Below, one piece after another: positions 3,752-40,419 of a stretch of DNA of 45,671 nt. The stretch lies in the IMG/VR virus record IMGVR_UViG_3300042691_034131, positions 1-45,671 of that record, one strand, 5' to 3'. Under the pieces are notes generated by a model. The model was not told where the DNA came from and did no database searches. It saw nothing but the letters and a program-made list of their open reading frames with translations. The number at the start of each line of letters is the position of its first letter. Position 1 is the stretch's first letter. This DNA comes from a virus. The translations under genes and the position numbers were made by a program.

Positions 3752-4663
3752 ATGAATAATGTAGGTTACTGTTGTATATGTTTGGGTATCAACGAGGGAA
3801 TGAAGAAGAAGGATCATATTACAGTCAACCGTTCAATGATCAAAAAGACTTTTGAGACAAAGGGGTTATCATATGTCTCTGAACTAATCATACCAAACTT
3901 AGAGGATACCTTGAAAGTATTAAAGTATAATATAAAAAATGGTATAAAAGTATATCGCATGTCCTCCGATTCATTTCCTTGGATGAGTCATTACAAATTC
4001 TCCGACTTACCAAACTTTACCAAAATACAAAGATTATTAACTCAGATTGGCAACTTAGTAAAAGAAAATAATATTAGGGTCTCTTATCATCCGGGCCCAT
4101 TCAATATATTGGGTAGTGAAAAAGAAAGTGTGGTACTAAAAACCATTGATGAATTGGATAAACACGCGGAACTTATGGATTTGATGGGATTGGATCAAAC
4201 AACTTATTATCCCATCAATATACACTTGAATGTTACCACACCAACACACCAAGAGGCTGCAAAAAGATTTTGTGATAATTTTCTTAGATTGAAACCATCA
4301 ACTAAATCCAGATTGACAATTGAGAATGATGATAAACCATCACAGTATTCAGTAAAGATGCTTTATGATTTGGTCCATAGTAGGATTGGGATTCCGATTG
4401 TAGTTGATAGTTTACACTATAGTTGTCATACTGATAATATGTCTTGGGAAGATACTTTGAAACTTGGTTTATCTACTTGGAAAGTCAGACCACTTTGTCA
4501 TCACTCTTCATCAAAAAAATTACATGAAGATGAAAAAGTTATTTTGTCAGCACATGCGGATTTTTTATACGAAACATTCGATTCTTGTGGTTTTGACATA
4601 GATATTGAGTTGGAATGTAAACAAAAAGATTTAGCTGTAGTAAAATACTTGAAGGACTTTTAA
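3752..4663 (+). CDS. uvsE: UV damage endonuclease UvdE (UvsE family)
   Basis: Nicks DNA on the 5' side of UV photoproducts and starts excision repair. It is a TIM-barrel, metal-dependent enzyme, and 303 residues is the usual family length. Family signatures are in order: GYCCICLGIN near the N-terminus (5-14), SYHPGPFNILGS (111-122, metal-ligand His113), TIENDD (189-194, Glu191), VVDSLHYSCH (217-226, Asp219 and nearby His), SAHAD (266-270) and DIELECK (284-290). All expected acidic and His ligands appear present, so it should be active. T4 solves the same problem with the unrelated DenV glycosylase. It stands alone on the plus strand, headed by a host-like -7 element, which suggests early or middle expression. 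Confidence 0.92.
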   Translation: MNNVGYCCICLGINEGMKKKDHITVNRSMIKKTFETKGLSYVSELIIPNLEDTLKVLKYNIKNGIKVYRMSSDSFPWMSHYKFSDLPNFTKIQRLLTQIGNLVKENNIRVSYHPGPFNILGSEKESVVLKTIDELDKHAELMDLMGLDQTTYYPINIHLNVTTPTHQEAAKRFCDNFLRLKPSTKSRLTIENDDKPSQYSVKMLYDLVHSRIGIPIVVDSLHYSCHTDNMSWEDTLKLGLSTWKVRPLCHHSSSKKLHEDEKVILSAHADFLYETFDSCGFDIDIELECKQKDLAVVKYLKDF

Positions 4664-4707: not shown

Positions 4708-5607
4708 ATGTTAAAAAACTTTATTAACAAACAGATTTTAATCTTGTTTGGAGTATTCGCTATGCTTTCTTGTAAAAAACAGGAACCAATCTTACCACAA
4801 GATAGTCATGTTCATACTCAAGAAGAAATAAATTCTATGGCTAGACTAGCCACAGAAAATCTTACTATGGGAAACCCTAGTAATGCTGTAACAAGCACAA
4901 CTTCACCAACCAACTACCTTCTCAGTAAATTTACTTGGGCTGCTAGTTATAATCGTGATAGAGGTATTCCAAACTGGGTATCTTGGCATTTAGACCCTAC
5001 TTGGGTTGGATCAGCTTCCCGTTGTGATTGTTTTGCTTCTGATGCTACACTTCCTAGTGGATGGTATCGTGTTGGTTCCTCATCTTACACCAACTCTGGC
5101 TTCGATCGTGGGCATATGTGTCCATCGGCTGATAGAACATTCTCATCAACTGATAACAGAGAAACGTTTCTAATGACTAATATGATTCCACAAGCACCAA
5201 ATAATAATCAAAGAACTTGGGTTGGTCTCGAAAATTATGAGAGGACTCTTGTGAACCAAGGTAATGAATGTTACATAATCTGTGGAGCTTACGGTATCGG
5301 TGGAACTGGCTCAAAAGGTGGTACTACCAACACTATTGACGCTGGGAGGGTTACTGTACCAAGACAAATTTGGAAAGTCTTAATATCTATCCCACAGGGC
5401 ACGAACGATGTTGCTAGAGTAACAACATCCTCAAGAATAATTGCCATTAACACACCAAACGTGAATAATCTAAATACGAATTGGGGTGTTTATAGAACAT
5501 CAGTTGATGCCATTGAAGCTGCTACTGGTTATGATTTATTCTCAGCCTTACCCGACGATATCGAGGCGGTATTGGAGGCTAGAATTGACAATGGTCCTAC
5601 ACAATAG
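4708..5607 (+). CDS. Lipoprotein DNA/RNA non-specific endonuclease (NUC family)
   Basis: Predicted exported, lipid-anchored nuclease that would cut DNA and RNA outside the cytoplasm. The N-terminus has Lys residues, a hydrophobic stretch (about 10-20) and an LSC lipobox with Cys22, typical of Bacteroidota signal peptidase II substrates. The NUC domain spans about 70-290. The catalytic DRGHM motif is at 133-137 (general-base His136), followed by the metal-site region TNMIPQAPNNNQ (157-168). Both catalytic elements are intact. The C-terminus overlaps the convergent thioesterase gene by 11 bases. A lipoprotein nuclease is unusual in a lytic-type phage genome. It may scavenge nucleotides, destroy competing DNA at the cell surface, or be a captured host gene. 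Activity is well supported; purpose is not. Confidence 0.9.
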   Translation: MLKNFINKQILILFGVFAMLSCKKQEPILPQDSHVHTQEEINSMARLATENLTMGNPSNAVTSTTSPTNYLLSKFTWAASYNRDRGIPNWVSWHLDPTWVGSASRCDCFASDATLPSGWYRVGSSSYTNSGFDRGHMCPSADRTFSSTDNRETFLMTNMIPQAPNNNQRTWVGLENYERTLVNQGNECYIICGAYGIGGTGSKGGTTNTIDAGRVTVPRQIWKVLISIPQGTNDVARVTTSSRIIAINTPNVNNLNTNWGVYRTSVDAIEAATGYDLFSALPDDIEAVLEARIDNGPTQ

Positions 5608-10057: not shown

Positions 10058-11889
10058 GAGAGTAACTCACTTTTTCTCAAATCAGAGTCTTTACCAAACC
10101 AAACGTTTAGATATTTCTGTGATAACTCGTCAGACGTTATCTGTGTTAATCGAGGGTTGTTTATAATATCTTTGTACTCGTCATCCACCAAGGCACCCAA
10201 ACCTTTTTTATATTCTATTTCCCAATCTTTGGAGTTATTAGACTCTAACCAACCGTTATAATCATCTTGATTATAAAAAGAGATTTTCTTTTTAGTCTTG
10301 TGATTCTTAACCACAACTATGGGTGTTTCTGCCTTGAATACTATAGGATTGTCGAAAAGTTCTGGCCAATACTTATATAAGAAATTCAAAAGTAGACCAA
10401 CAATTGAACTCCCATCATGATCGGCGTCACAGTAAAGAAGTATTCTACCATATCTAAGTGTACCAGGTACTACCTTTTGTCCCAACTTTAAACCTAGAGC
10501 TCCCATCAAGTTTATTACTTCATTGTTCGATGCTAATTTTTGGTTTGTAATTTCCATAGCATTTATGAATTTACCCCTTAATGAAAAAGCACCCTGTGTT
10601 TGTGGGTCACGATATTTTCTAAAAGCAGATGAAGCAGAATCACCCTCAAAAAGTGCGAGTGAACACTTCCATCTTTCCTTACCCTTGGCGTCTATTAGCT
10701 TTTCAACCTTGATCTTTGAAAGGTTCTTATTCAATTCACGTGCTAATTTACTCTCATCAGCGTTCTTTTTTTGTTGAATCCAATCGAGGACAGAATTAAC
10801 TATCTCAGATTTGAGTATGGATTTTATAAGTTTTTCAGAAACTTCAAATGTAAAACCCATGTCTTTGATTTCTGTTATTAGTTTCTCCTTGGTCTGTGAT
10901 GAAAACGATGGGTTTATTACGGTGGAAGATAAAAATATTTGAATGTGGTTTTTTAATTCGGATGGTTTAACGTCGACTTTATGTTTCTTTTGAAAATATT
11001 CTCTCAGATGTGAAATTATCTGATTCAAAATATAATCAACGTGATTACCGCCATCATATGTTTCAGTAGAATTAACGAAAGAAACTTGATTGAAACCATC
11101 TGTTGAGTGTGCGACCCCCAAGCTCCAAGATTTATCTTTATTTGTTTCGAAAAAGTAGTCATCCCTATAGAATTTTATGTAATCTTCAAATGTCTTGATT
11201 TTTATTAGTTCATCATTCAATAGTATCTTCAAGGTGGGATTACAACCAGCAATGTCCACAACACGTTTTTTTAGCATCATCAAGTTGGAATCGTCCAAAT
11301 GATCTAATCCGAATTTTTCATAGTCAGGAATAAAAGTAATACAAGTATGATTTTCTTTCTTTCTTTTGATAACGGGTTCAGATCTTTCCCTCATATTATT
11401 TTTGAAAGTTTGAAGGAATGAATTCTTCCCATCACAGGTTGAGATCGTAAATTCTTTTGAAAAAATATTTGTCAAACTAGACCCCACACCGTTCGTACCT
11501 GCCCAAGTTCTTCCTTCAGAATCATCAAAATTAGAACCAGCTTTCAAATTCGAAAATATCATTTCTGGTATCCACTCATTTTCATCTTTATGTTTAACAA
11601 CTGGTATCCCACCATTATCCCATACCTCAATTTTATTATTAGATATTGTGACCTTGATGGTGTCTAACTTTGATTCAGGTCTTTTGTGCTCATCGACTGA
11701 GTTGGTTATGATTTCATCAAAAATCTTCAAGAGTCCGGGATTGTAAGTTAGTTCACGAACTACCATTTTATCATCTATAAAAACATTCTTTTTTGCAGTA
11801 TGTGGTTTTATTGAACCAATATACATTGATGGTCTCTGAAGTACGTGAGTTATATCGTCTAACTTTTTGAATCTTTTTTCAATCGACAT
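10054..11889 (-). CDS. 39: DNA topoisomerase II large subunit (T4 gp39/gp60-like)
   Basis: ATPase and metal-binding half of a type IIA topoisomerase that relieves supercoils during phage replication. The N-terminal GHKL ATPase shows DEIITNSVDEH (58-68), DNGGIPV (91-97) and the lid loop GRTWAGTNGVGSSLTN (126-141). A transducer domain follows, then a TOPRIM domain with FEGDSASSAFRKYRD (Glu at about residue 407) and LLYCDADHDGS. The ATPase and TOPRIM parts are in one chain, unlike T4 where gp39 and gp60 are split. I chose ATG 11889 (MSIEKRFKK); the frame is open to 11922, but that stretch holds the late-like motif. It is divergent from the medium subunit, with only 60 bases between. Confidence 0.95.
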   Translation of the reverse strand: MSIEKRFKKLDDITHVLQRPSMYIGSIKPHTAKKNVFIDDKMVVRELTYNPGLLKIFDEIITNSVDEHKRPESKLDTIKVTISNNKIEVWDNGGIPVVKHKDENEWIPEMIFSNLKAGSNFDDSEGRTWAGTNGVGSSLTNIFSKEFTISTCDGKNSFLQTFKNNMRERSEPVIKRKKENHTCITFIPDYEKFGLDHLDDSNLMMLKKRVVDIAGCNPTLKILLNDELIKIKTFEDYIKFYRDDYFFETNKDKSWSLGVAHSTDGFNQVSFVNSTETYDGGNHVDYILNQIISHLREYFQKKHKVDVKPSELKNHIQIFLSSTVINPSFSSQTKEKLITEIKDMGFTFEVSEKLIKSILKSEIVNSVLDWIQQKKNADESKLARELNKNLSKIKVEKLIDAKGKERWKCSLALFEGDSASSAFRKYRDPQTQGAFSLRGKFINAMEITNQKLASNNEVINLMGALGLKLGQKVVPGTLRYGRILLYCDADHDGSSIVGLLLNFLYKYWPELFDNPIVFKAETPIVVVKNHKTKKKISFYNQDDYNGWLESNNSKDWEIEYKKGLGALVDDEYKDIINNPRLTQITSDELSQKYLNVWFGKDSDLRKSELLS

Positions 11890-19950: not shown

Positions 19951-20565
19951 ATGGCAAACTTATTCAATAAAGCAAAAACAACAGCACCTAAGACGGCAGC
20001 TAAAAAAGATGACAAAGTACGGGTAAATTTGAATGACCCTGAGTTTTTCACCAAGGTTTACAAATTGGAAATCTTACAAGACCGTATGAAGTCTGATAAG
20101 GCTCAGGCAGATCTATTGGCTGACGAGATCAAAGATCTTTCTAAAGAAGAGTGGGTTAGACTCTACGAGAAGTCGGGTAGAAATCCAGGTTCTATATTTG
20201 TTGAGTCTATCGTTAATGAGCAGACAGCACAAGTAATGTTTGTACCTTCAGACAAGTATATTACAGTTAATGCTGATAAAGCTGACGTTCTTATAGAAAA
20301 GTATGGTCAAGACATTGTCGAAGAAAAAACAACATTCTCTTTTGATAACGATATGATTGAAAAATATGGTGAAGTTTTGTCAAACTTAATTATGAACTGT
20401 AATGATATTTCCGATTCCGATAAGGAGAAAATTATTAAAGCTTCTACCTCCTACTCAATTGCTAAGGGAACTATTGATAAGATGAAGTTCTACGGGCCGA
20501 TAGCAGAGATTATGGAAGAAGTTAAACCAGTTGTCTCTCTCAAAAATGTTGAGGTAGTAAAATAA
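19951..20565 (+). CDS. Conserved-looking phage protein, strongly expressed (204 aa)
   Basis: Function not recognised. It starts MANLFNKAKTTAPKTAAKKD, a flexible Ala/Lys-rich tail. A helical region follows (FFTKVYKLEILQDRMKSDKAQ), then a strand-rich region around SIFVESIVNEQTAQVMFVP and a helical C-terminal half. Its own strong promoter and strong terminator make it a single-gene unit of probably high output. It is soluble, without export signal. The early-type promoter suggests a DNA-metabolism or host-takeover protein. This is inference from context only. Confidence 0.8.
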   Translation: MANLFNKAKTTAPKTAAKKDDKVRVNLNDPEFFTKVYKLEILQDRMKSDKAQADLLADEIKDLSKEEWVRLYEKSGRNPGSIFVESIVNEQTAQVMFVPSDKYITVNADKADVLIEKYGQDIVEEKTTFSFDNDMIEKYGEVLSNLIMNCNDISDSDKEKIIKASTSYSIAKGTIDKMKFYGPIAEIMEEVKPVVSLKNVEVVK

Positions 20566-20596
20566 AAAAAACCCACCGATTTGGTGGGTTTTTTAT
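20565..20596. terminator. Bidirectional terminator
   Basis: ACCCACC (20571-20577) pairs with GGTGGGT (20583-20589) around GATTT, flanked by A-run and T-run. It separates the convergent genes 19951-20565 and 20597-22735. Confidence 0.9.
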
Positions 20597-22735
20597 TTAT
20601 TGTTTGACTACACGGTATCTATCTCGAATTATACCATAAGAATCTTTTATCAACAGATAATAAACTCCGGTCAATATTCGCAAATTTACATTATTGTCTA
20701 TTTGTTGAAGTTCACCGTTTTTTATTTTTTTACCATTCACATTTAAGATTTCAAAATAAAGCTTTTGACCGGTGATGTTCCTTATATTCAACAAATCGTT
20801 CACAGGGTTGGGGTATACTTTTAGTTCAGTAAATATTGGATCATTTGTATTTGTAGTTGAATCCATCAAGTCCAAATTATTCCTTGGTAAAAGTTTCATA
20901 TTTGAAAAACTGTATGTCAAAATTCCTTGTATTTTAGTGAATTCTTGACCTGGTGAAACTATTATCACGGGCACATTCATAGTACCATCTGTTGTCGCCC
21001 AAATGGGAGAATTAACATAACTAACATTCAAAGAGGAAAATGTACTCGAACCTTGTCTACCAGTCAAAACTCTACAACCTGAACTCGGATCGTTGACATC
21101 ATTTCCAACTCTCCACTCACCATTATTCCTACTCTGTGCTGCGTCAGCATTTGTATCAACTACGAATAAGTTTCCTACTGGGTTTACAAGTGATACCAAC
21201 ATACTCTCATACTTTTCACAAGTAGCAAAATCATAGACAGAGAATATATTCGGGTTCAAAGTTACAGGACTCGGTACCGGTTGTTGTGTTTGTATTACTT
21301 GAACATTTGAAATATTGCTTAATCTAGTGAGTCCGAAATACTCTTCAACAACACCGGTAACGGCAACTCTGTCACCCACAACAAGGTTTGTGATAAGACT
21401 ACCACCATTGACCCAGATACCAGACCAAGCAACATCACCATCTTGTTGAATGTAAACAAAACCTAAGTTATTATTTTCAGCAGAAGCGGTAACAATTCCT
21501 CTCAAAGTTACGGTATCACCAACATAACCAGATCTTCCAATGGCATATGGTGTATATTGTATATCCCTTATTGTGCAACCAATATTACTAACTGTATAAA
21601 ACAAAGGTGTGGATTGACCAGGAACGTTAGGTAGTACTGTAGTATTGTTCACATTATCTTTAGCTCTAAAATAATATCTAACTAAAGTACCTACTTGTTG
21701 TGGGGGTATTGCAGCTGAATACCTTGTACCAGCTGGTTGAGCGGCTACAGCGGTGTAAGTGGTCCCATCGATTGAATATAAAACTTCAGCGGAAGTTACC
21801 AAGCTATCATCTGTTATGTCAGCTGATACGATTAAAGGATTTAATGAGTTCGGACAAGGTTGACTTTTTTTCATATTCCCAATTGAGGGTGAAGAAGCTC
21901 CCTTAGTATAATGAGTCAAACTAAATGGGTTAATATTATAACCTCTATTATTTGGAGACGTATTTCCACAACCATTTTTCCAACCTTCGATAACACCTTT
22001 TACTTTTGTATATTGATCACCGACGTTTGGAGCGACAAAACCATTTGTTGTTCGTTGTGTCCTGAATCTATCATAAATCCAAATGTGATTATCATTTGCA
22101 TCTTTTACTAGAATTCTACATCTATCCCCAGTAAGTGTTACATTGACCACAGTCACATTTGAAATCTCAACGAAGTTACCTTCAAGTGGTTCTCCAGTGA
22201 GAATATGATTCAATGGCTGACCATCGGAATTTAGATTACCGTTTAGTTGCCCAACCGAAACAGGTAAAGCCTCAGGAGCCGGACCGGGACTAAAACTCAA
22301 AAGTTCCACACCACCATCTACTGGTGTTAATTGTGTTTCACCATTATTTGCACCATTGGAACCTAGAAACTCGGTAACAGTTCCAACCACTTCGATAGTG
22401 TCACCTGATACTAATGTATTGATGTCAGTTGGGGTAGTGGCGGCGGAAGCTCTAACTGTAATGTTTCCGAATGGGGTTGAAGGACTTGCAGTTACATCCC
22501 TAACCCAAATCCAACGGGTTTGTCCAGTAGTTTCATTTAGACCACCAGGAGTGATAACTACCGCTTTGATTTTTACGACTTGATTGAGATATAATGGATT
22601 GGGACCATCAGTGCAGGAATCTGGTTGAAATTGACCAGGCCAACCTTGTATTTCTTGTATGGTTACATTTGGAATTTGTGAATAACCAGAAAGAAAAACA
22701 GTTAAGAAAGAAAAGATAAGTAATAATTTTTTCAT
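20597..22735 (-). CDS. Exported OB-fold protein with T9SS C-terminal sorting domain
   Basis: Predicted to be secreted by the host type IX secretion system. The N-terminal 20 residues (MKKLLLIFSFLTVFLSGYSQ) are a clear Sec signal peptide. Three OB-fold-like modules follow: LYLNQVVKIKAVVITPGG with TIEVVGTVTEF, then the 180-260 region, and later GYVGDTVTLRGIVTASAE with RVAVTGVVEEYFG. An Ig-like module lies between them (about 300-375). The last 75 or so residues match the type A T9SS sorting domain: LKVYPNPVNDLLNIRN, then ILNVNGKKI, and TGVYYLLIKDSYG near the end. I see no catalytic domain. It is a lone minus-strand gene between a bidirectional terminator and a divergent promoter, the layout of a late-acquired cargo gene. 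Function could be surface binding or nuclease support. Confidence 0.9.
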   Translation of the reverse strand: MKKLLLIFSFLTVFLSGYSQIPNVTIQEIQGWPGQFQPDSCTDGPNPLYLNQVVKIKAVVITPGGLNETTGQTRWIWVRDVTASPSTPFGNITVRASAATTPTDINTLVSGDTIEVVGTVTEFLGSNGANNGETQLTPVDGGVELLSFSPGPAPEALPVSVGQLNGNLNSDGQPLNHILTGEPLEGNFVEISNVTVVNVTLTGDRCRILVKDANDNHIWIYDRFRTQRTTNGFVAPNVGDQYTKVKGVIEGWKNGCGNTSPNNRGYNINPFSLTHYTKGASSPSIGNMKKSQPCPNSLNPLIVSADITDDSLVTSAEVLYSIDGTTYTAVAAQPAGTRYSAAIPPQQVGTLVRYYFRAKDNVNNTTVLPNVPGQSTPLFYTVSNIGCTIRDIQYTPYAIGRSGYVGDTVTLRGIVTASAENNNLGFVYIQQDGDVAWSGIWVNGGSLITNLVVGDRVAVTGVVEEYFGLTRLSNISNVQVIQTQQPVPSPVTLNPNIFSVYDFATCEKYESMLVSLVNPVGNLFVVDTNADAAQSRNNGEWRVGNDVNDPSSGCRVLTGRQGSSTFSSLNVSYVNSPIWATTDGTMNVPVIIVSPGQEFTKIQGILTYSFSNMKLLPRNNLDLMDSTTNTNDPIFTELKVYPNPVNDLLNIRNITGQKLYFEILNVNGKKIKNGELQQIDNNVNLRILTGVYYLLIKDSYGIIRDRYRVVKQ

Positions 22736-22822: not shown

Positions 22823-22853
22823 TTGACAAGAATAAATAAAAGTGTTACCTTTG
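22823..22853 (+). promoter_or_regulatory. Strong host-like promoter for the MoxR gene
   Basis: TTGACA (22823-22828), 17-base spacer, TACCTTTG (22846-22853), 23 bases before the ATG at 22877. Same geometry as the promoter at 19897. Confidence 0.82.
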
Positions 22854-22876: not shown

Positions 22877-24040
22877 ATGACAAACTTCGTAAATACCTCC
22901 ACCCCCTCACAGACCAACGTAATGTCTCAAGAGCTTCGTGATCGAATTTCTACTCTCACACCTCGCGAACGTAAGTATTTTATGACAATGTGGCCAAAGT
23001 CTGGTGTACTTTACATCACCTCTAAACCAGGTATCGCAAAGTCGGCAATCGCTCGTACTATCGCTGACAAAATGGGTTTCCGATATATGGACATGCGACT
23101 CTCGATGAACGATGAAAGTGATTTCAAATTTCCGTATCTTCGTGAAGAAAACTTCGATGGCAAAGATCTAAAAGTTAGTGGTACTGCTGTACCAGAGTGG
23201 GCATACGAAGCGAACCAACGTCCAACAATAATCCACTTTGAGGAGTTGAATCGGGCACCACAGTTTGTTCGTAATGCAGCTCTTCAGATTCTCCTTGAAC
23301 GTCAAATCGGTGATTTCAAGTTCAACGATGGTGTCCTTATGTTAGCATCTGGTAACCTCGGTGATGAAGATGGTACTGACGTAGAAGAGTTTGATAACGC
23401 ACTCAATAACCGTCTAATTCACTTTTCACACACACTGAGTACAGACGAGTGGATCGATGGTTACGCGAAGGATAATATTCACGGTGTCATTGTATCCTAT
23501 ATCAAAGCTTACCCAGAGAAACTTTATCAGAATCCAACCGAAAATACAAAAGCATATGCTACTCCTAGGTCTTGGACTTTTCTGAGTGATTTTATCACAA
23601 AGAATTTCGGTAAAGATGCTTCTCCGAGGGAATTTTTACCTTATGTTCAAGAGGTTGCACACGGTTACATCGGCAACTCCGCACAAAGGTTCTTACAATA
23701 TTGTCAAGAAATGGTAAATATCACTATTCAAGACATTATCGACCGTTACGATAAAATCGAAAAGGAACTCGATAAGTACAATCGTGATAAGAATTCTGAA
23801 CTTATCAACTCACTTAAAGAGTATGATATCAAGAAAATGTCAGACAAACAATTGGCTAATGTAACCAAGTTCCTCAATCGAGTTGGTGAAGATGAACTGA
23901 CGGCATATCTTCTTCACATCTTGGACAACGTACCAGATGTAAGTGACCCAAAGGTTAAGAAGTTTATGCAAAGTTTCCGTGATGTGTTGATTAACATCAA
24001 ACGGATCAATAAACCTACAGACAAAAAGTCCTCTAAATGA
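22877..24040 (+). CDS. MoxR-family AAA+ ATPase (387 aa)
   Basis: Hexameric ATPase of the MoxR branch, which with VWA partners remodels or matures protein complexes. Walker A is SKPGIAKS (49-56), the MoxR form of the P-loop. Walker B is IIHFEELNRAP (118-128), sensor 1 lies at LMLASGN (Asn160), and an Arg near NNRLIHF (Arg179) follows. The C-terminal lid and a coiled segment extend to residue 387. ATG 22877 is chosen because the open frame to 22778 crosses a strong promoter. It ends in a strong terminator. I saw no AGA among its Arg codons, a pattern shared with the VWA gene at 16622. The two genes are not adjacent but probably act together. Confidence 0.93.
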   Translation: MTNFVNTSTPSQTNVMSQELRDRISTLTPRERKYFMTMWPKSGVLYITSKPGIAKSAIARTIADKMGFRYMDMRLSMNDESDFKFPYLREENFDGKDLKVSGTAVPEWAYEANQRPTIIHFEELNRAPQFVRNAALQILLERQIGDFKFNDGVLMLASGNLGDEDGTDVEEFDNALNNRLIHFSHTLSTDEWIDGYAKDNIHGVIVSYIKAYPEKLYQNPTENTKAYATPRSWTFLSDFITKNFGKDASPREFLPYVQEVAHGYIGNSAQRFLQYCQEMVNITIQDIIDRYDKIEKELDKYNRDKNSELINSLKEYDIKKMSDKQLANVTKFLNRVGEDELTAYLLHILDNVPDVSDPKVKKFMQSFRDVLINIKRINKPTDKKSSK

Positions 24041-24986: not shown

Positions 24987-25748
24987 ATGGAAACATACTT
25001 TATATTATATAAAACGACTAATTTAATTAATGGCAAGAGTTATATAGGTATACATAAAACTAATAATCTGAACGATGGATATTTAGGTAGTGGTTTTGCT
25101 ATAACGGAAGCAATTGAAAAATATGGGAAAGATAATTTTAAAAGAGAAATTTTAGAATTTTGTGACTCATATGATGAATTATTGGAACTTGAAAAGATAT
25201 ATGTTGATAAAAATTGGGTAAAAGATAAATCCAATTATAACTTAAAAACTGGTGGACAAAGTTTTGGTATTTTATCAGAAGAATCTAGAAATAAGATATC
25301 TGAAACCTTGAAAAGAAAATATAAAGATGGTGAAATTGTTATTAATAGAAGATATGGATTTGAACCTTGGAATAAAGGATTAAATGGGGTTTACAGCGAA
25401 GAATACAAACTTAAAATATCAGAAGGTTTAAAAGGCAGAAAACCTTGGAACAAAGGAGAAAAAGAATTACAAATAGCTTGGAATAAAGGATTACAATTGG
25501 GACCTATGACAGAAGAAGAGAAAGAGAAGAGATCAAAAACTTTGAAAGAAAGATATAAAAATATAGAACACCACTGTAAAGGCAAAGAGCCTTGGAACAA
25601 AGGTAAATGTGGAGTTCAGCAAGCTTGGAATAAGGGTATTGAAATGGAAAAAATCGAATGCCCTCATTGTGGTAAATACTGTGACAAGTTGAATGCTAAA
25701 AAATGGCATTTCGATAATTGTAAAAAAAGAGGGGAAGAAGTTATTTAG
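24987..25748 (+). CDS. GIY-YIG homing endonuclease with WNKG repeats
   Basis: A free-standing homing endonuclease of the Seg/I-TevI type that cuts DNA to spread its own gene. The GIY-YIG domain is at 1-95: ILYKTTNLINGKSYIG (6-21) and GYLGSG (31-36), with Glu70 as a probable catalytic acid. The usual GIY is replaced by ILY. DNA-binding NUMOD3-like segments follow, such as LSEESRNKISETLKRKYKDG and YSEEYKLKISEGLKG. Five WNKG repeats occur with Trp at 128, 154, 165, 203 and 214. A C-terminal zinc finger has Cys225, Cys228, His241 and Cys245. Its gene lies between YkuK-like and BFN genes without disrupting either. No intron boundary is seen, so it is probably intergenic. Confidence 0.9.
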   Translation: METYFILYKTTNLINGKSYIGIHKTNNLNDGYLGSGFAITEAIEKYGKDNFKREILEFCDSYDELLELEKIYVDKNWVKDKSNYNLKTGGQSFGILSEESRNKISETLKRKYKDGEIVINRRYGFEPWNKGLNGVYSEEYKLKISEGLKGRKPWNKGEKELQIAWNKGLQLGPMTEEEKEKRSKTLKERYKNIEHHCKGKEPWNKGKCGVQQAWNKGIEMEKIECPHCGKYCDKLNAKKWHFDNCKKRGEEVI

Positions 25749-25815: not shown

Positions 25816-26409
25816 ATGAAACTCAAAGAACTCAAAATAGTGGGATTGTCTTATTCACAGACTCAAGTTGGTTCGTATGTATTGGTGATGTCAGAAAAAA
25901 GAGGAAAAAAGAAACTCCCCATAATAATAAATCAAGATACTGCTCAATATATTGCTTTGAAACTAGAAAGTGTCAAGGTAAAAAGACCACTCACTTTCGA
26001 TTTATTCAAAAACCTGACAGATAGACTCGGTGCTGACTTGTATCAAATTCATATTACAAACATCCTTGAAGGAGTTTTTTATGTTAAATTGGTATTTCAC
26101 AATATGGTAGAAGAGTTCGAAATCGAATCATCTATCTCGGATGCTGTTTGTTTATCTGTAGCATATAAATGTCCTGTATTTTGTTCAAAAGAAGTTCTTG
26201 ATATCGCGGGTATTCTTATGGATGATGATGGTTCGATGTCAGAAGAACAGTATGAAGAGAACCACAAGAAAAGAGATTATTCTTCTATCATCAGTATAGA
26301 AAACCTCGAAAAAATGCTAGATAAAGCTATCGAAAATGAAGAGTATGAAATCGCTTCCCAACTGAGGGACAGAATTGTCGAACTAAAAGAAAAATCAAAA
26401 TCAAAATAA
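25816..26409 (+). CDS. BFN-UVR protein (bifunctional nuclease family)
   Basis: Matches the Bacteroidota form of the bifunctional nuclease family (DUF151), about 200 residues with a UVR tail. The BFN domain covers 1-140 with RPLTFDLF (57-64), a beta-rich middle VFYVKLVFHNMVEEFEIESS and SDAVCLSVAYKCPVF (108-122). The UVR motif at 162-192 (LEKMLDKAIENEEYEIAS) is a helical hairpin used for protein contacts in UvrB/UvrC. This looks like a captured host gene. Its stop overlaps the Dam start (26409), so the two are translated together. It could support DNA repair or degradation of host DNA; biochemical activity in this family is poorly defined. Confidence 0.9.
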   Translation: MKLKELKIVGLSYSQTQVGSYVLVMSEKRGKKKLPIIINQDTAQYIALKLESVKVKRPLTFDLFKNLTDRLGADLYQIHITNILEGVFYVKLVFHNMVEEFEIESSISDAVCLSVAYKCPVFCSKEVLDIAGILMDDDGSMSEEQYEENHKKRDYSSIISIENLEKMLDKAIENEEYEIASQLRDRIVELKEKSKSK

Positions 26410-34900: not shown

Positions 34901-35078
34901 TATAGTATTTACCACAGGAGAACAAATTGGATTTGTGCAATATGTCAATAGAGGTGATATTGGTACAGTTTCAGAAGTTTTATCAGAAACTGACTCAAGT
35001 TTCGGTGTTTTATTGAATGAAATACCACAAGTTACTGGTGGTTCAGTCAGTGAGTTTTCTTATATTTTTGTTAGCTAG
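34881..35078 (+). CDS. Tiny structural-region protein (65 aa)
   Basis: Not recognised. I chose the ATG at 34881 (or 34887) rather than 34821, because 34821 lies deep inside the previous gene in another frame. The protein reads MDMALTDIVFTTGEQIGFVQ, then DIGTVSEVLSETDSSFGV, and looks beta-rich. The 20-base overlap with the 63-residue gene suggests coupling. It converges on the collagen-like fibre gene, with an eight-base overlap at the ends (35071-35078) and no terminator. Confidence 0.55.
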   Translation: MDMALTDIVFTTGEQIGFVQYVNRGDIGTVSEVLSETDSSFGVLLNEIPQVTGGSVSEFSYIFVS

Positions 35079-37335
35079 TTTTTGTAGTTCTTATAACTAA
35101 GTTGACCCTAGAAACAGATGAAACCGAATCAACAACAAACTCATAAATATCCGTAGCACTGAAAGTTAAATTCCAGCCTGTCAAAGTTGAATCTGTATTT
35201 TTTTGTTGTGAAGTTAAGTTTATGTAGTTACCATTCGTTACTGATGTGGTCGTAGGGAAACCTGCAAATGTTGATATTTTCAAGTCAATTGATATTGAAC
35301 CAGATTGGTTACCCAAAACATCCCAACCAGTTATATTTCCACCATAAGGCATCGTTACATAACCCTTACTACCAGTGGTAATACCAACATTCCCACCATC
35401 TAAGGTTATACCAAATGAACCTTTTGTAATCCCACTTGGACCCGTAGGACCTTGTGGACCACTATTTCCCTGTGGACCAGTAATACCCTGAAGACCAGTT
35501 ATTCCTTGGGGACCAGTTTCACCTTGGGGACCGGTTGAACCTTGAACTCCTTGAACACCTTGAGGACCCGTTTCACCCTGTGGACCAGTTAAACCTTGCA
35601 CTCCTTGAACTCCTTGAGGACCAGTTTCACCCTGTGGACCAGACTGCCCCTGCAAACCAATGCTACCTTGTGGACCAGTAACACCCCCAGCAAATATGAA
35701 TAATGCTAAATGTTGACCTGATAAAAAGTTTGTGGTTCCAGTCCCACTCGATGTTAGAAATCCAACTGGTACCTCCACATATGAATTTGGAATTATTAAA
35801 GTTGGACCATTTACTATAAACTTCTGATAATTATTTGAATCATCTTGATCTTGAATTATCAATGAATCGTTCAACTTTATCAAATTCAAAAAAACATCCA
35901 CATCAACGAAGTTCTTATCTATGTGTGAGATGTTGATTTGTGTTGCACCTATTTGTGTACTGTTATTCCAGAGTAAAAATGATGGTGTGGGATTACCAGA
36001 TAAAGAAGCGGTAGCATAATATTGAAAATAATTTGATGACTGACCTGGTGAACCTTGGGGACCAGAAAACCCCTGATATCCTTGTACACCTTGAACTCCT
36101 TGAGGACCAGTTTCACCTTGGGACCCAGTATTTCCTTGTGGACCACTTGCACCTTGTGGACCACTTACACCTTGATTACCAGTGGACCCTTGAGGACCAG
36201 TGTTACCTTGGATGCCAGTATTACCCTGTGGACCACTTACACCTTGATTACCAGTGGACCCTTGAGGACCAGTGTTGCCCTGAACACCGGTCTCACCTTG
36301 TGGACCACTTACACCTTGATTACCAGTTATTCCACTAGGTCCAGTAGGACCTTGTACCCCACTTAATCCTTGAGGACCGGAAAATCCTTGAGAACCTATT
36401 GGTCCAGCACCACCACCATATAGTATCGTACCTGTTGTTACTGTGGCAAATATAAGTTGAAATGAATTATTTGAAAAATGAATTATTGAATCCGGAACGA
36501 ATATATTACCTGTATTATCAAATACTTGAATGAAAGGATATTGACCTGTGTTGTGATTAATAGTACTAGAAGTTACAGAAGAAAATGTAACAGCAATCAG
36601 AGGATCTGACATCGGACCTTGCGGACCAGTATTTCCCTGTGGACCAGTATTACCTTGTACACCCGTAGATCCTATATAACCTTGTGGACCAGTTTCACCT
36701 TGATAACCTTGTGGACCAGTATTACCTTGTAGACCGGTATTACCTTGCACACCAGTTTGTCCTTGTGGACCGGATGTGCCAATTATTGTTAATTGTACCC
36801 AAGCCCCAGCGACTTGGTCAGGTGGGTTACTACCGATGGGTTGATATTGATAATTAATATACAATAATCCATTATACAGAACATAGTCAAGTGGTGAATA
36901 TGAATTGTTGGTATCCCAATTACCTTTATAATCAAGAGATGAACCTGTTGCACCTTGAGGACCAGTATTACCTAAGAAACCCTGAGGACCTGTTTCTCCT
37001 TGGAAGCCTTGTGGACCTGTTTCACCTTGAAACCCTTGTGGACCTGTTTCACCTTGCAAACCGGTACTACCACCACCAGCACCTTGAAACCCTTGTGGAC
37101 CTGTTTCACCTTGCAAACCAGTGCTACCACCACCAGCACCTTGGAACCCTTGTGGACCAGTTGGACCTTGATTACCAGAACCAGAACCACCTCCACTGCC
37201 AATTCCTTGTGGTCCTTGTGGTCCAGATGACTGAATGTTTACAGCATCCCAGGCAAACCCATTGAATATCCAATCTTTACCATTGATTGAATATGTTTGT
37301 CCAGTAGAAGGATTTAAGGGGAAATTTAGTGCCAT
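35071..37335 (-). CDS. Collagen-like tail fibre protein (754 aa)
   Basis: A likely receptor-binding or fibre protein. Residues 1-33 (MALNFPLNPSTGQTYSINGK and the following tryptophans) form the short beta N-terminus common to phage fibre proteins. Long Gly-X-Y runs (mostly GPQG, GETG and GLQG triplets) follow in three blocks, separated by two non-collagen beta domains. One includes NTGQYPFIQVFDNTGNIF, which matches a domain in the neighbouring fibre gene. A C-terminal knob starts near 670 (ITLDGGNVGITTGSKGYVTM). Two tandem 19-residue units ([19 protein letters not shown]) are seen near the N-terminus. It has its own late-like motif and is on the opposite strand from the structural triplet. 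Confidence 0.93.
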   Translation of the reverse strand: MALNFPLNPSTGQTYSINGKDWIFNGFAWDAVNIQSSGPQGPQGIGSGGGSGSGNQGPTGPQGFQGAGGGSTGLQGETGPQGFQGAGGGSTGLQGETGPQGFQGETGPQGFQGETGPQGFLGNTGPQGATGSSLDYKGNWDTNNSYSPLDYVLYNGLLYINYQYQPIGSNPPDQVAGAWVQLTIIGTSGPQGQTGVQGNTGLQGNTGPQGYQGETGPQGYIGSTGVQGNTGPQGNTGPQGPMSDPLIAVTFSSVTSSTINHNTGQYPFIQVFDNTGNIFVPDSIIHFSNNSFQLIFATVTTGTILYGGGAGPIGSQGFSGPQGLSGVQGPTGPSGITGNQGVSGPQGETGVQGNTGPQGSTGNQGVSGPQGNTGIQGNTGPQGSTGNQGVSGPQGASGPQGNTGSQGETGPQGVQGVQGYQGFSGPQGSPGQSSNYFQYYATASLSGNPTPSFLLWNNSTQIGATQINISHIDKNFVDVDVFLNLIKLNDSLIIQDQDDSNNYQKFIVNGPTLIIPNSYVEVPVGFLTSSGTGTTNFLSGQHLALFIFAGGVTGPQGSIGLQGQSGPQGETGPQGVQGVQGLTGPQGETGPQGVQGVQGSTGPQGETGPQGITGLQGITGPQGNSGPQGPTGPSGITKGSFGITLDGGNVGITTGSKGYVTMPYGGNITGWDVLGNQSGSISIDLKISTFAGFPTTTSVTNGNYINLTSQQKNTDSTLTGWNLTFSATDIYEFVVDSVSSVSRVNLVIRTTKTS
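37029..37150. repeat. 57-bp tandem repeat in the fibre gene
   Basis: Two near-identical 57-base units (period from 37029 to 37086 to 37143), encoding 19 residues each, in frame. The units differ by a few third-base changes, so they may be old or under selection. Confidence 0.7.
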
Positions 37336-37337
37336 TT

Positions 37338-37351
37338 AGTTATATATACTC
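37338..37351 (-). promoter_or_regulatory. Late-like promoter motif
   Basis: Minus-strand GAGTATATATAACT just ahead of the fibre gene start at 37335. Confidence 0.5.
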
Positions 37352-37363
37352 ATTTTTTTATTT

Positions 37364-38530
37364 TTATATAATCCACCAGTTATTATTTCTTCTTAAAACA
37401 GTTAAAGATCCATAATCAATGGTGACTTGTGCTTCATTCTGATTATCTATACTTTCACCAACATTCGGTACTATGTGGATAGCATTAATCGAAGCTCTTC
37501 CACTCTCATCTTTAACTGTTATGGTTTTACCAATAACTACATTTGTAGGTAAATATACATAAGATGTTGTACTTGAAGAAACACCAAAATATTCGGGTCC
37601 ATATTGTGAATATAATGTTATGGAGTAACTGGCAACATTAATTTCACTAGTGTAATGATTCAAACTACCAGCAATTGTACTTGTAGGTTGTACCCATTGC
37701 AGTGAATCACCATCATCTATGTATATGTATTCGACTCCTGTATCTGAGTGAAACCACCTAGAACCCGCTGTTAAGGAACCGCTAACTGGTGGGGTATTAC
37801 TGTAATAGAACGGTAGAGAAGGTCCAGTTGGTCCTTGTATGCCAGTGTGTCCCTGTGGACCGGTGATTCCTTGAGCGCCGGTAAAACCTTGTGGACCAGT
37901 TAAACCTTGTGGACCCGTGATACCCTGTGGACCCGTGATACCTTGTGGACCTGTTTCACCTTGTAAACCTGTTAATCCTTGTGGTCCGGTATTACCTTGA
38001 AGACCTGTAAGACCCTGTGGACCTGTGAGTCCTTGGGGACCTGTTTCACCTTGTAAACCTGTTAATCCTTGAGGGCCAGTATTGCCACTCAAACCGGTAG
38101 GTCCATTGGCACCAGTCAGCCCTCTGAGTCCTTGTGGACCAGCACCACCACCAATAATATAAGTTCCAGTGGAAGGTGTAGAGAAAGTGACTGAAATTGA
38201 AGCAGTTGATGTGTGCTGAACGTAAGTTGGTGAAATTAAATTGCCATTTTCATCAATAAATTGGATCAAAGGGTATACTCCACTGCTGTGTGTTATTGTT
38301 AGAAATAAACTATTACTAAATGTGGCATTGAAAGCGGGATTACCAACTGGTCCTTGTGGACCTGTTTCACCTTGAAGTCCAGTAGGTCCTTGTGGACCAG
38401 ATATTCCTTGCGCGCCTTGACCTATGTTAAGTGGATTACCAAAACCATCGTAAAATTCAGTAGAGTTAATAACTTGCACCAGTCGTCCGTATGTAGACGA
38501 CACAGTCAGTCCCGTGAAACTATATGTCAT
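37364..38530 (-). CDS. Collagen-like fibre protein (388 aa)
   Basis: Second fibre gene of the same type. The N-terminal part ([20 protein letters not shown]) is followed by a short Gly-X-Y run. A beta domain contains [18 protein letters not shown] and [13 protein letters not shown], related to a domain of the 754-residue fibre. A long Gly-X-Y block spans about 140-230. The C-terminal domain contains [20 protein letters not shown] and ends NNNWWII, typical of phage fibre tips. I chose ATG 38530 over the TTG at 38536. A late-like motif overlaps the region just upstream, and the gene is divergent from 38588. Confidence 0.9.
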
Positions 38531-38534
38531 GACC

Positions 38535-38548
38535 AAATATATATTAAC
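38535..38548 (-). promoter_or_regulatory. Late-like promoter motif
   Basis: Minus-strand GTTAATATATATTT immediately before the fibre start at 38530; also reads as TATATTTG. Paired back to back with the plus-strand motif at 38571-38584. Confidence 0.45.
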
Positions 38549-39623: not shown

Positions 39624-39868
39624 TGAAACACCTGTATACTTTTGATCAACTAAATGAAAATTTACCCAGACAATCTACTGTGAATCAACTTAAAAAGTTG
39701 AGAAAGATTACAAAAGGTACCGATATAGGTGATCGAATTTCCGATATGAACAAACAAGGTGCCAATATTCACTATATTTCCAATCCCATAGATACTGGTA
39801 TTGAGTCGATCGAACACTACTGGAAACATAACGATCCAGTGCAACCAGTTAAGACTAAATCCAAATGA
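39623..39868 (+). CDS. Small hypothetical protein (81 aa)
   Basis: Not recognised. It begins MKHLYTFDQLNENLPRQSTV, another F-x-x-L-N-E leader-like start, then a basic helix (LKKLRKITKGTDIGDRISDM). It overlaps both neighbours by one to four bases. Its size and leader suggest a possible capsid-packaged peptide or scaffold piece. Weak evidence only. Confidence 0.62.
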   Translation: MKHLYTFDQLNENLPRQSTVNQLKKLRKITKGTDIGDRISDMNKQGANIHYISNPIDTGIESIEHYWKHNDPVQPVKTKSK

Positions 39869-40419
39869 TAAGATTGAAAACATATTCCCAATTCAATTCA
39901 ATCTTAGAAGATAAATCTGGGAGTATGTATGAATATGGGTGTTTGATGATCTATATCGATTTTCCAAAATGGAGAGATATATTGAGCAAAATCGATAAAA
40001 GGATTTTATTCGAACCTTCCAATGAAAGATACGGTTTGGAAACGGAACCACATATAACAATATTGTATGGAATACATTCTGATGTAGATGATGATCAAGT
40101 CAAAAACCTTTTTTCAAATGTTAAAAAAACCGATTTCGATATCACTGTAAATGGTATAAATTGTTTCTTCAATAAAGATTACGATGTTTTGAAAATGGAT
40201 GTACAATCTAATAAACTGAATGAATTGAATGAACTATCGAAATCTTTACCACATACTTCTACTTATCCTGATTACAAACCACATTTAACAATGGCTTATC
40301 TATTGAAAGGTAACGGTAATAAATATATTAATCCAACATTCAAAATGAAAATTGATAATATAAATAAAATCGTTTACTCAAAGACAAATGGTGAAAAGAT
40401 TGACATCTTACTTAAATAA
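39865..40419 (+). CDS. Acb1-like 2H phosphoesterase (184 aa)
   Basis: Carries two His-x-Thr motifs: EPHITILYG with His63 and Thr65, and KPHLTMAYLL with His140 and Thr142. The start of the domain, MYEYGCLMIYIDFPKW (21-36), and YGLETEPHITILYG resemble, from memory, T4 gp57B and other Acb1 proteins. Those hydrolyse cyclic di- and trinucleotides made by CBASS defence. The length also fits with about 20 extra residues at the N-terminus: MIRLKTYSQFNSILEDKSGS, similar to the T4 capsid-targeting leader MKTYQEFIAE. The CDS overlaps the 81-residue gene by four bases. Function as an anti-CBASS enzyme is inferred from family likeness; the phosphoesterase fold itself is firmer. Confidence 0.82.
   Translation: MIRLKTYSQFNSILEDKSGSMYEYGCLMIYIDFPKWRDILSKIDKRILFEPSNERYGLETEPHITILYGIHSDVDDDQVKNLFSNVKKTDFDITVNGINCFFNKDYDVLKMDVQSNKLNELNELSKSLPHTSTYPDYKPHLTMAYLLKGNGNKYINPTFKMKIDNINKIVYSKTNGEKIDILLK

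Follow-up and report, generated by a model that had tools for sequence, protein, structure and literature searches.

The type IX secretion system (T9SS) is confined to the Bacteroidota group and its relatives. Phage-borne cargo for this system is, as such, already known. It was reported in 2020 for Cryophage, a Bacteroidota phage with accessory genes that bear the type A sorting tag and for which use of the host export machine was proposed (Nat Commun 2020, PMC7468147). T9SS sorting domains on phage proteins were also described near the crAss-BACON genes of gut phages (Viruses 2019, PMC6949934).

Here, we followed up a gene in a stretch of 45,671 nucleotides (the window), which is the whole of the IMG/VR virus record IMGVR_UViG_3300042691_034131. 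The gene is a 712-aa reading frame, as first described, and its product carries a T9SS tag (Table 1). What is new, as far as the literature consulted shows, is that a phage holds a conserved orthologue of a single gene from a conserved host surface operon, and that T9SS cargo is frequent in related huge phages. The virus probably uses this gene to alter the surface of the cell it infects.

Phage context and insertion site

Among the gene products of the record are a single-strand binding protein of the T4 gp32 type, phage topoisomerase II subunits, and a phage MoxR-type ATPase; it further has a tail-fibre match and collagen-like fibres. In the central block (DUF2201, 2H phosphoesterase, 204-aa gene, MoxR, RNase H-like, BFN, and D12 methylase), synteny is seen with LR745206 (634,780 bp) and, in part, with LR756502 (642,428 bp), at identities mostly of 50-72%. 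The sizes of these two sequences fit those of Mahaphage genomes (634 and 642 kb), which belong to Bacteroidota phages. Because of this synteny, we consider that the 45.7-kb window most likely represents part of the genome of a phage related to the 634-642 kb Mahaphages. Using tblastn at 1e-5, we found no named isolate phage or plasmid with the T9SS gene. The ancestry of its genes probably links the phage to Bacteroidota, with gene donors that are T9SS-bearing.

Other genes of the window were annotated on the way. The 2H-phosphoesterase protein (39865-40419, plus strand) matches the anti-CBASS Acb1 family (PF23474, 30.7 bits; cut-off 27). A GIY-YIG homing-type endonuclease (24987-25748, plus strand) lies between the RNase H-like and BFN genes and is present in some relatives only, and the bifunctional nuclease (BFN) domain protein (25816-26409, plus strand) has a UvrB/UvrC motif and is conserved in the huge-phage group. 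Two collagen-repeat proteins (35071-38536, minus strand) are probably fibres.

The sequence-only reading had described the T9SS gene as a lone accessory unit on the minus strand, and this held. The gene is flanked by a 204-aa gene on one side and by a MoxR-type AAA gene on the other, at a site that is empty in related phages: in one of them (L079), the 204-aa gene stops 61 bp before MoxR, and in LR745206 fewer than 400 bp separate the two. In L078, the closest relative by DUF2201 (93%), both the 204-aa gene and the T9SS gene are missing from the site. A second contig from another metagenome, IMGVR_UViG_3300008459_011050 (L001; 178 kb), carries a copy of the T9SS gene that is 78% identical and has the same position and orientation. 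Upstream of MoxR, L001 and L078 carry an A-type iron-sulphur carrier (IscA-like by eye; 10982-11311 and near 11259-11585, respectively) that is missing at the matching place in the window.

Regarding the flanking signals, a terminator and a divergent promoter had been proposed. The bidirectional terminator stood; the canonical Bacteroidota promoter (TTG..TAnnTTTG, 22823-22853) faces the MoxR gene and not the T9SS gene. The candidate promoter of the T9SS gene is instead a box shared by both phages, CAAATRTARTAATATAA, with no other occurrence in the window or in other loci. Since this motif was derived post hoc from both phage sequences, its rarity is no independent test.

The presence of a bacterial-type gene on a phage contig could come from an assembly chimera that joined host DNA into it, and the nearest non-phage relatives of the protein are indeed bacterial. 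This is ruled out, and we leave it practically no probability: contigs of two metagenomes, 78% identical in the gene, agree in gene, site, and orientation, the flanking genes diverge in step with the T9SS gene, and the GC of the gene (0.37) is near that of the phage vs. 0.40-0.45 in the host orthologues. The claim that it is a genuine phage gene was thus upheld.

Between the two phages, the body of the protein presents 87% amino-acid identity (pS 0.70, pN 0.096, dN/dS 0.05), with synonymous sites near saturation; the flanking MoxR gene gives pS 0.71, pN 0.081, and dN/dS 0.04. Such near-saturated synonymous divergence at a dN/dS of 0.05 indicates that the T9SS gene is under selection through long phage evolution. 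The same values speak against a passive hitch-hiker, a host gene acquired accidentally and unused, as do the retention of both tags and the upstream box common to both phages. Its patchy presence would suit that explanation (L079, LR745206, and L078 are all without the gene), which we judge very improbable.

Sorting signals and modules of the protein

The T9SS tag of the phage protein is real. A Sec signal peptide and a type A C-terminal domain (CTD) had been read from the sequence, and both were recovered. For the CTD, PF18962 matched residues 640-699 at 32.9 bits (cut-off 27), and the TIGR04183 check matched residues 640-711 at 28.9 bits (cut-off 23). TIGR04131 (type B) gave no match up to E=1 in the 712-aa protein. 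A sorting-domain search of the window's own whole record scored 34.5 bits; among the control genomes, two of 14 matched at all and one of 14 above the cut-off. The L001 copy reaches 26.0-28.9 bits with TIGR04183, over the cut-off, and stays under that of PF18962. At the other end of the protein, the N-terminus MKKLLLIFSFLTVFLSGYSQ reads as Sec type I without a lipobox (by eye), and a signal peptide is also present in L001 and the host orthologues. Because tag and signal peptide occur together, the host T9SS would likely export the phage protein, given expression in a suitable host.

At the structural level, the CTD modelled alone (residues 625-712, with five orthologues) is a 7-strand sandwich with a pLDDT of 82. 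Among its top matches in the PDB are the mirolase CTD (8QB1, rank 1), PorZ (5M11), RemA-CTD (8GL6), and NucA (8GLK), at TM-scores of ~0.6-0.7 and modest E-values of 1e-3 to 3e-2. The RemA and NucA structures are of CTDs captured in the T9SS translocon. Moreover, a 16-sequence profile of the whole family matches the T9SS CTD chains 8GLJ_D and 8GLK_D at 4e-9.

The CTD is 26% identical between the two phages vs. 87% for the body. A replacement of the CTD between them is possible rather than established, because in the host orthologues this domain drifts fast as well (22-38% identity vs. roughly 50-75% for the body).

The OB-fold-like modules proposed between signal peptide and CTD stood at the level of profiles: residues 412-530 match the ExeM/NucH model NF033681 (model positions 2-124) at 1.5e-15, and residues 409-468 match PF01336 at 5.3e-5, under its gathering cut-off. 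The whole-protein model was too poor to prove OB folds (AlphaFold full-length, 6 rows; pLDDT 53, pTM 0.36). Its top PDB matches, which are tandem-OB DNA-binding proteins, are suggestive, and the whole-protein viral fold matches are hints only. Searching the PDB with the single sequence gave no direct relative, and neither did the two-phage profile; relatives of the CTD and OB parts were found there only with the 16-row profile that includes host homologues. For the Ig-like module, a Big_7 match (0.0025) in one host homologue (L004) gives further support.

In L001, the NF033681 match covers model positions 2-214 (residues 412-621; 5.8e-17). We also considered the phage protein as an ExeM nuclease and rejected it, because it scores 57.1 bits against a cut-off of 300 for NF033681 and shows no match to the C-terminal EEP domain.

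Table 1. Features of the T9SS gene, its insertion site, and the lipoprotein nuclease in the window
Feature	Coordinates	Strand	Evidence or remark
Lipoprotein DNA/RNA non-specific endonuclease, DRGH motif	4708..5607	+	PF01223 2.1e-52; lipobox LSC-KKQEP
204-aa phage gene, left border of insertion site	19951..20565	+	80% in L001, 46-67% in other related phages
Bidirectional terminator, common with 204-aa gene	20566..20594	.	equivalent hairpin in L001
Phage B, orthologue of host operon gene B, with T9SS surface tag	20597..22735	-	712 aa
T9SS type A sorting domain, residues 636-712	20600..20830	-	TIGR04183 and PF18962 over cut-off; CTD model
OB-fold module, homologous to ExeM/NucH N-terminal half, residues ~401-530	21146..21535	-	NF033681, PF01336, PDB 9SF8 7e-5
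Ig-like module, residues ~295-382	21590..21853	-	profile vs. peptidylarginine deiminase C-terminal part, 2.5e-4
Beta module 2, residues ~186-280	21896..22180	-	low-confidence model
Beta module 1, OB-like, residues ~48-147	22295..22594	-	low-confidence model; 36-90% identity across homologues
Signal peptide, residues 1-20	22676..22735	-	sequence; helix 2-16 in model
17-bp box CAAATRTARTAATATAA, also in phage L001	22757..22773	-	candidate promoter, 20-21 bp upstream of start
MoxR-type AAA ATPase, right border of insertion site	22877..24040	+	phrog_1297 4.4e-58; 65% to LR756502

Host operon and possible role during infection

Full-length orthologues at 60-63% identity were found in four MAG contigs (L002-L005) labelled Cytophagaceae or Spirosoma fluviale. 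There, the gene belongs to an operon of A (~742 aa), B (the orthologue of the phage protein), C (a lipoprotein), D (a TonB-dependent receptor with a carboxypeptidase-regulatory domain), and E (PorV/PorQ family, 128 bits; cut-off 90). Among 391 genomes of one bacterial order, further full-length homologues of B down to ~33% identity mostly keep this gene order, within contig reach. Upstream of A, the deeper operons add a symporter of the sodium-solute type (by eye) and a secreted EEP nuclease, the tail of which is weakly T9SS-like; downstream, they add a lipoprotein that matches NHL. The phage loci hold B alone, with A, C, D, and E absent.

The tree places the phages in a single clade, nested among the host B proteins of L002-L005 (6-row clade 100/99) and sister to L002/L003 with moderate support (88/89). 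All five nearest gene-donor genomes (G002-G005, G128) encode the T9SS translocon protein SprA; none was found in the phage records examined. The sequence-only reading had foreseen neither the orthology of the protein to a member of this conserved host operon nor the recurrence of tagged proteins in the related huge phages.

Phage B keeps 44 of the 45 residues that are invariant in 15 host B proteins, and this conservation is what one would expect if it works as an orthologue and is not a decoy. We looked for a decoy signature, with phage changes clustered in one module, and saw none; divergence is even along the body.

From its profile matches, the host operon resembles an ExeM/NucH that has been split and joined to an uptake receptor, since B matches the N-terminal half of NF033681 and the neighbouring nuclease its C-terminal half (positions 266-544). 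In Vibrio cholerae Xds, the corresponding region has been described as an OB fold preceding the EEP domain (PMC6746945). The operon is widely conserved and apparently uncharacterised, and it may handle extracellular nucleic acid.

Our preferred explanation, which we hold tentatively and somewhat short of an even chance, is that the phage has long kept a functional copy of gene B from a freshwater Cytophagaceae-type surface operon, and that the product is exported by the T9SS and supports nucleic-acid capture and breakdown at the surface. During infection, phage B would be expressed and secreted by Sec, and its signal peptide removed. The host PorV/SprA machine would then recognise the type A CTD and bring phage B to the cell surface, where it would serve, as host B does, as an OB-fold binding partner of the ExeM/NucH-like nuclease and TonB-receptor complex. 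Capture and breakdown of extracellular nucleic acid would be raised or maintained in this way during the replication of a very large phage genome.

The steps of this explanation differ in strength. Based on orthology and residue conservation, phage B is somewhat more apt to join the host complex than to stay outside it. That nucleic acid is the ligand, with a nutritional or nuclease-linked benefit, has less than one half of our confidence. Besides nucleic acids, OB folds have proteins or sugars as possible ligands. Moreover, the donor-like genomes have a homologue of the EEP nuclease, but elsewhere and not adjoining A-B, which counts against the explanation.

The phage also encodes a nuclease of its own. 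In a crude scan of the window's real genes, the only clear exported proteins were the T9SS protein and a lipoprotein nuclease, which has homologues in L001 (77%) and in the 464 kb phage G399 (64%). The predicted mature protein starts with CKKQEP in the window, which comes close to the export signal of Bacteroidota surface lipoproteins, and with CEKDE in G399, which fits the C-X-K-(D/E)2 signal defined in Capnocytophaga (PMC5080379). This nuclease is a possible functional partner of phage B, and in the preferred explanation the two would probably act together. A UV-endonuclease gene, UvdE (3752-4663, plus strand; PF03851 3.9e-45), adjoins the lipoprotein nuclease gene.

That B is carried alone could also be explained by a receptor-blocking role. 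The main rival is superinfection exclusion: the exported phage B would occupy or remodel the TonB receptor/lipoprotein complex used as phage receptor, and infected cells and lysis debris would stop binding this phage or its competitors. The operon of B has a TonB receptor, a lipoprotein, and a PorV-family protein, and only B was taken. A precedent exists in Llp of phage T5, a phage protein that jams the TonB-dependent FhuA (PMC9586334), and surface changes of this kind were proposed in the huge-phage and Cryophage papers (PMC7162821, PMC7468147). However, the conserved residues and the even body divergence described above point to a working orthologue and not to a jammed or decoy form, and the host already makes its own B. 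We regard superinfection exclusion as rather unlikely. The sequence-only reading had suggested the blocking of other phages, DNA binding, or adhesion as the purpose of the protein; the operon context favours work with nucleic acid or in the uptake complex.

Phage B could also leave the cell, as a released public good or a virion-linked factor that binds DNA, glycans, or surfaces outside, for example in biofilm matrix or particle adhesion. T9SS cargo can be anchored or set free into the medium (PMC10202324), and passengers found in related phages, such as subtilases and an F5/8C domain, are consistent with action outside the cell on matrix or surface. Against this role, which we consider distinctly unlikely, the gene, with a terminator and an upstream box of its own, adjoins MoxR and nuclease-type genes and not structural genes, and its host orthologue is placed among outer-membrane receptor genes.

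The gene offers a concrete and testable case of a phage that would use the T9SS to place its own version of a subunit of a host surface complex on the infected cell. The gene is also a pointer to the host operon itself, with its surface nuclease, OB protein, TonB receptor, and PorV-family protein.

T9SS cargo in related phages and comparison with known systems

A survey of other phages for T9SS-tailed proteins had been suggested, and such proteins turned up: 11 of 22 related IMG/VR records had at least one match over the cut-off. This frequency is rough and applies to the related group rather than to phages generally, the records being mostly fragments gathered via two genes. We used profile searches of whole records for this survey; tblastn with the CTD retrieved only the Mahaphage pair among the phage records and was too insensitive. 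G399 has four sorting-domain matches over the cut-off, and T9SS-tagged proteins were present in all three Mahaphages of 634-642 kb that were tested. In BFVD, too, one viral protein takes its name from the sorting domain. Thus, T9SS-tagged cargo is frequent in Mahaphage-like huge phages and not a one-phage curiosity.

Among the passengers in related phages are S8 subtilases, a protein with F5/8C, one with propeller repeats, and a small protein family of ~190 aa. The tagged S8 subtilases of three related huge phages (L114, L116, L123) are apparently proteases addressed to the host surface. The ~190-aa secreted proteins come from three other huge phages (L071, L072, L112), and in two of the three the gene lies directly beside a DnaJ-like gene. 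One protein of G399 (P0002, L125) matches the OB module of B weakly (hhalign probability 40%).

A broader proposal is that huge Bacteroidota phages routinely remodel the host surface via the T9SS with an exchangeable set of tagged proteins, and that in the present lineage a phage copy replaces or supplements one subunit of the host TonB/PorV nucleic-acid-uptake complex during infection. The set would comprise the OB-fold operon component, the subtilases, and the F5/8C and propeller proteins. We consider this proposal somewhat less likely than not.

Compared with Cryophage, phage B shares the type A tag and the accessory position. However, in Cryophage the tags sit on an endoglucanase, a GH39 enzyme, and a PA14 protein, all highly variable between variants, whereas phage B is a strongly conserved, near full-length orthologue from a host TonB/PorV operon and belongs to a huge-phage lineage. 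The crAss-BACON gut phages also have T9SS sorting domains on phage proteins, but their passengers are BACON repeats near head genes, without orthology to a host operon.

With ExeM/NucH (Xds), the likeness is the OB module, which matches the N-terminal half of NF033681 in both phages. Unlike ExeM/NucH, the phage protein has no EEP domain, and the nuclease of the host is separate, often adjacent, and has the weak T9SS-like tail. T5 Llp is also a phage-made envelope protein, and phage B may likewise act on a TonB-dependent receptor; Llp is a small periplasmic lipoprotein, whereas phage B is a large, surface-tagged orthologue of a host component.

Finally, the closest counterpart is host B itself, in L002-L005 and in deeper homologues, which has the same modules and the same tag, with the nearest clade similar over the whole length. 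The phage copy differs in standing alone, without A, C, D, and E and in opposite orientation to its neighbours, and in its strongly diverged CTD.
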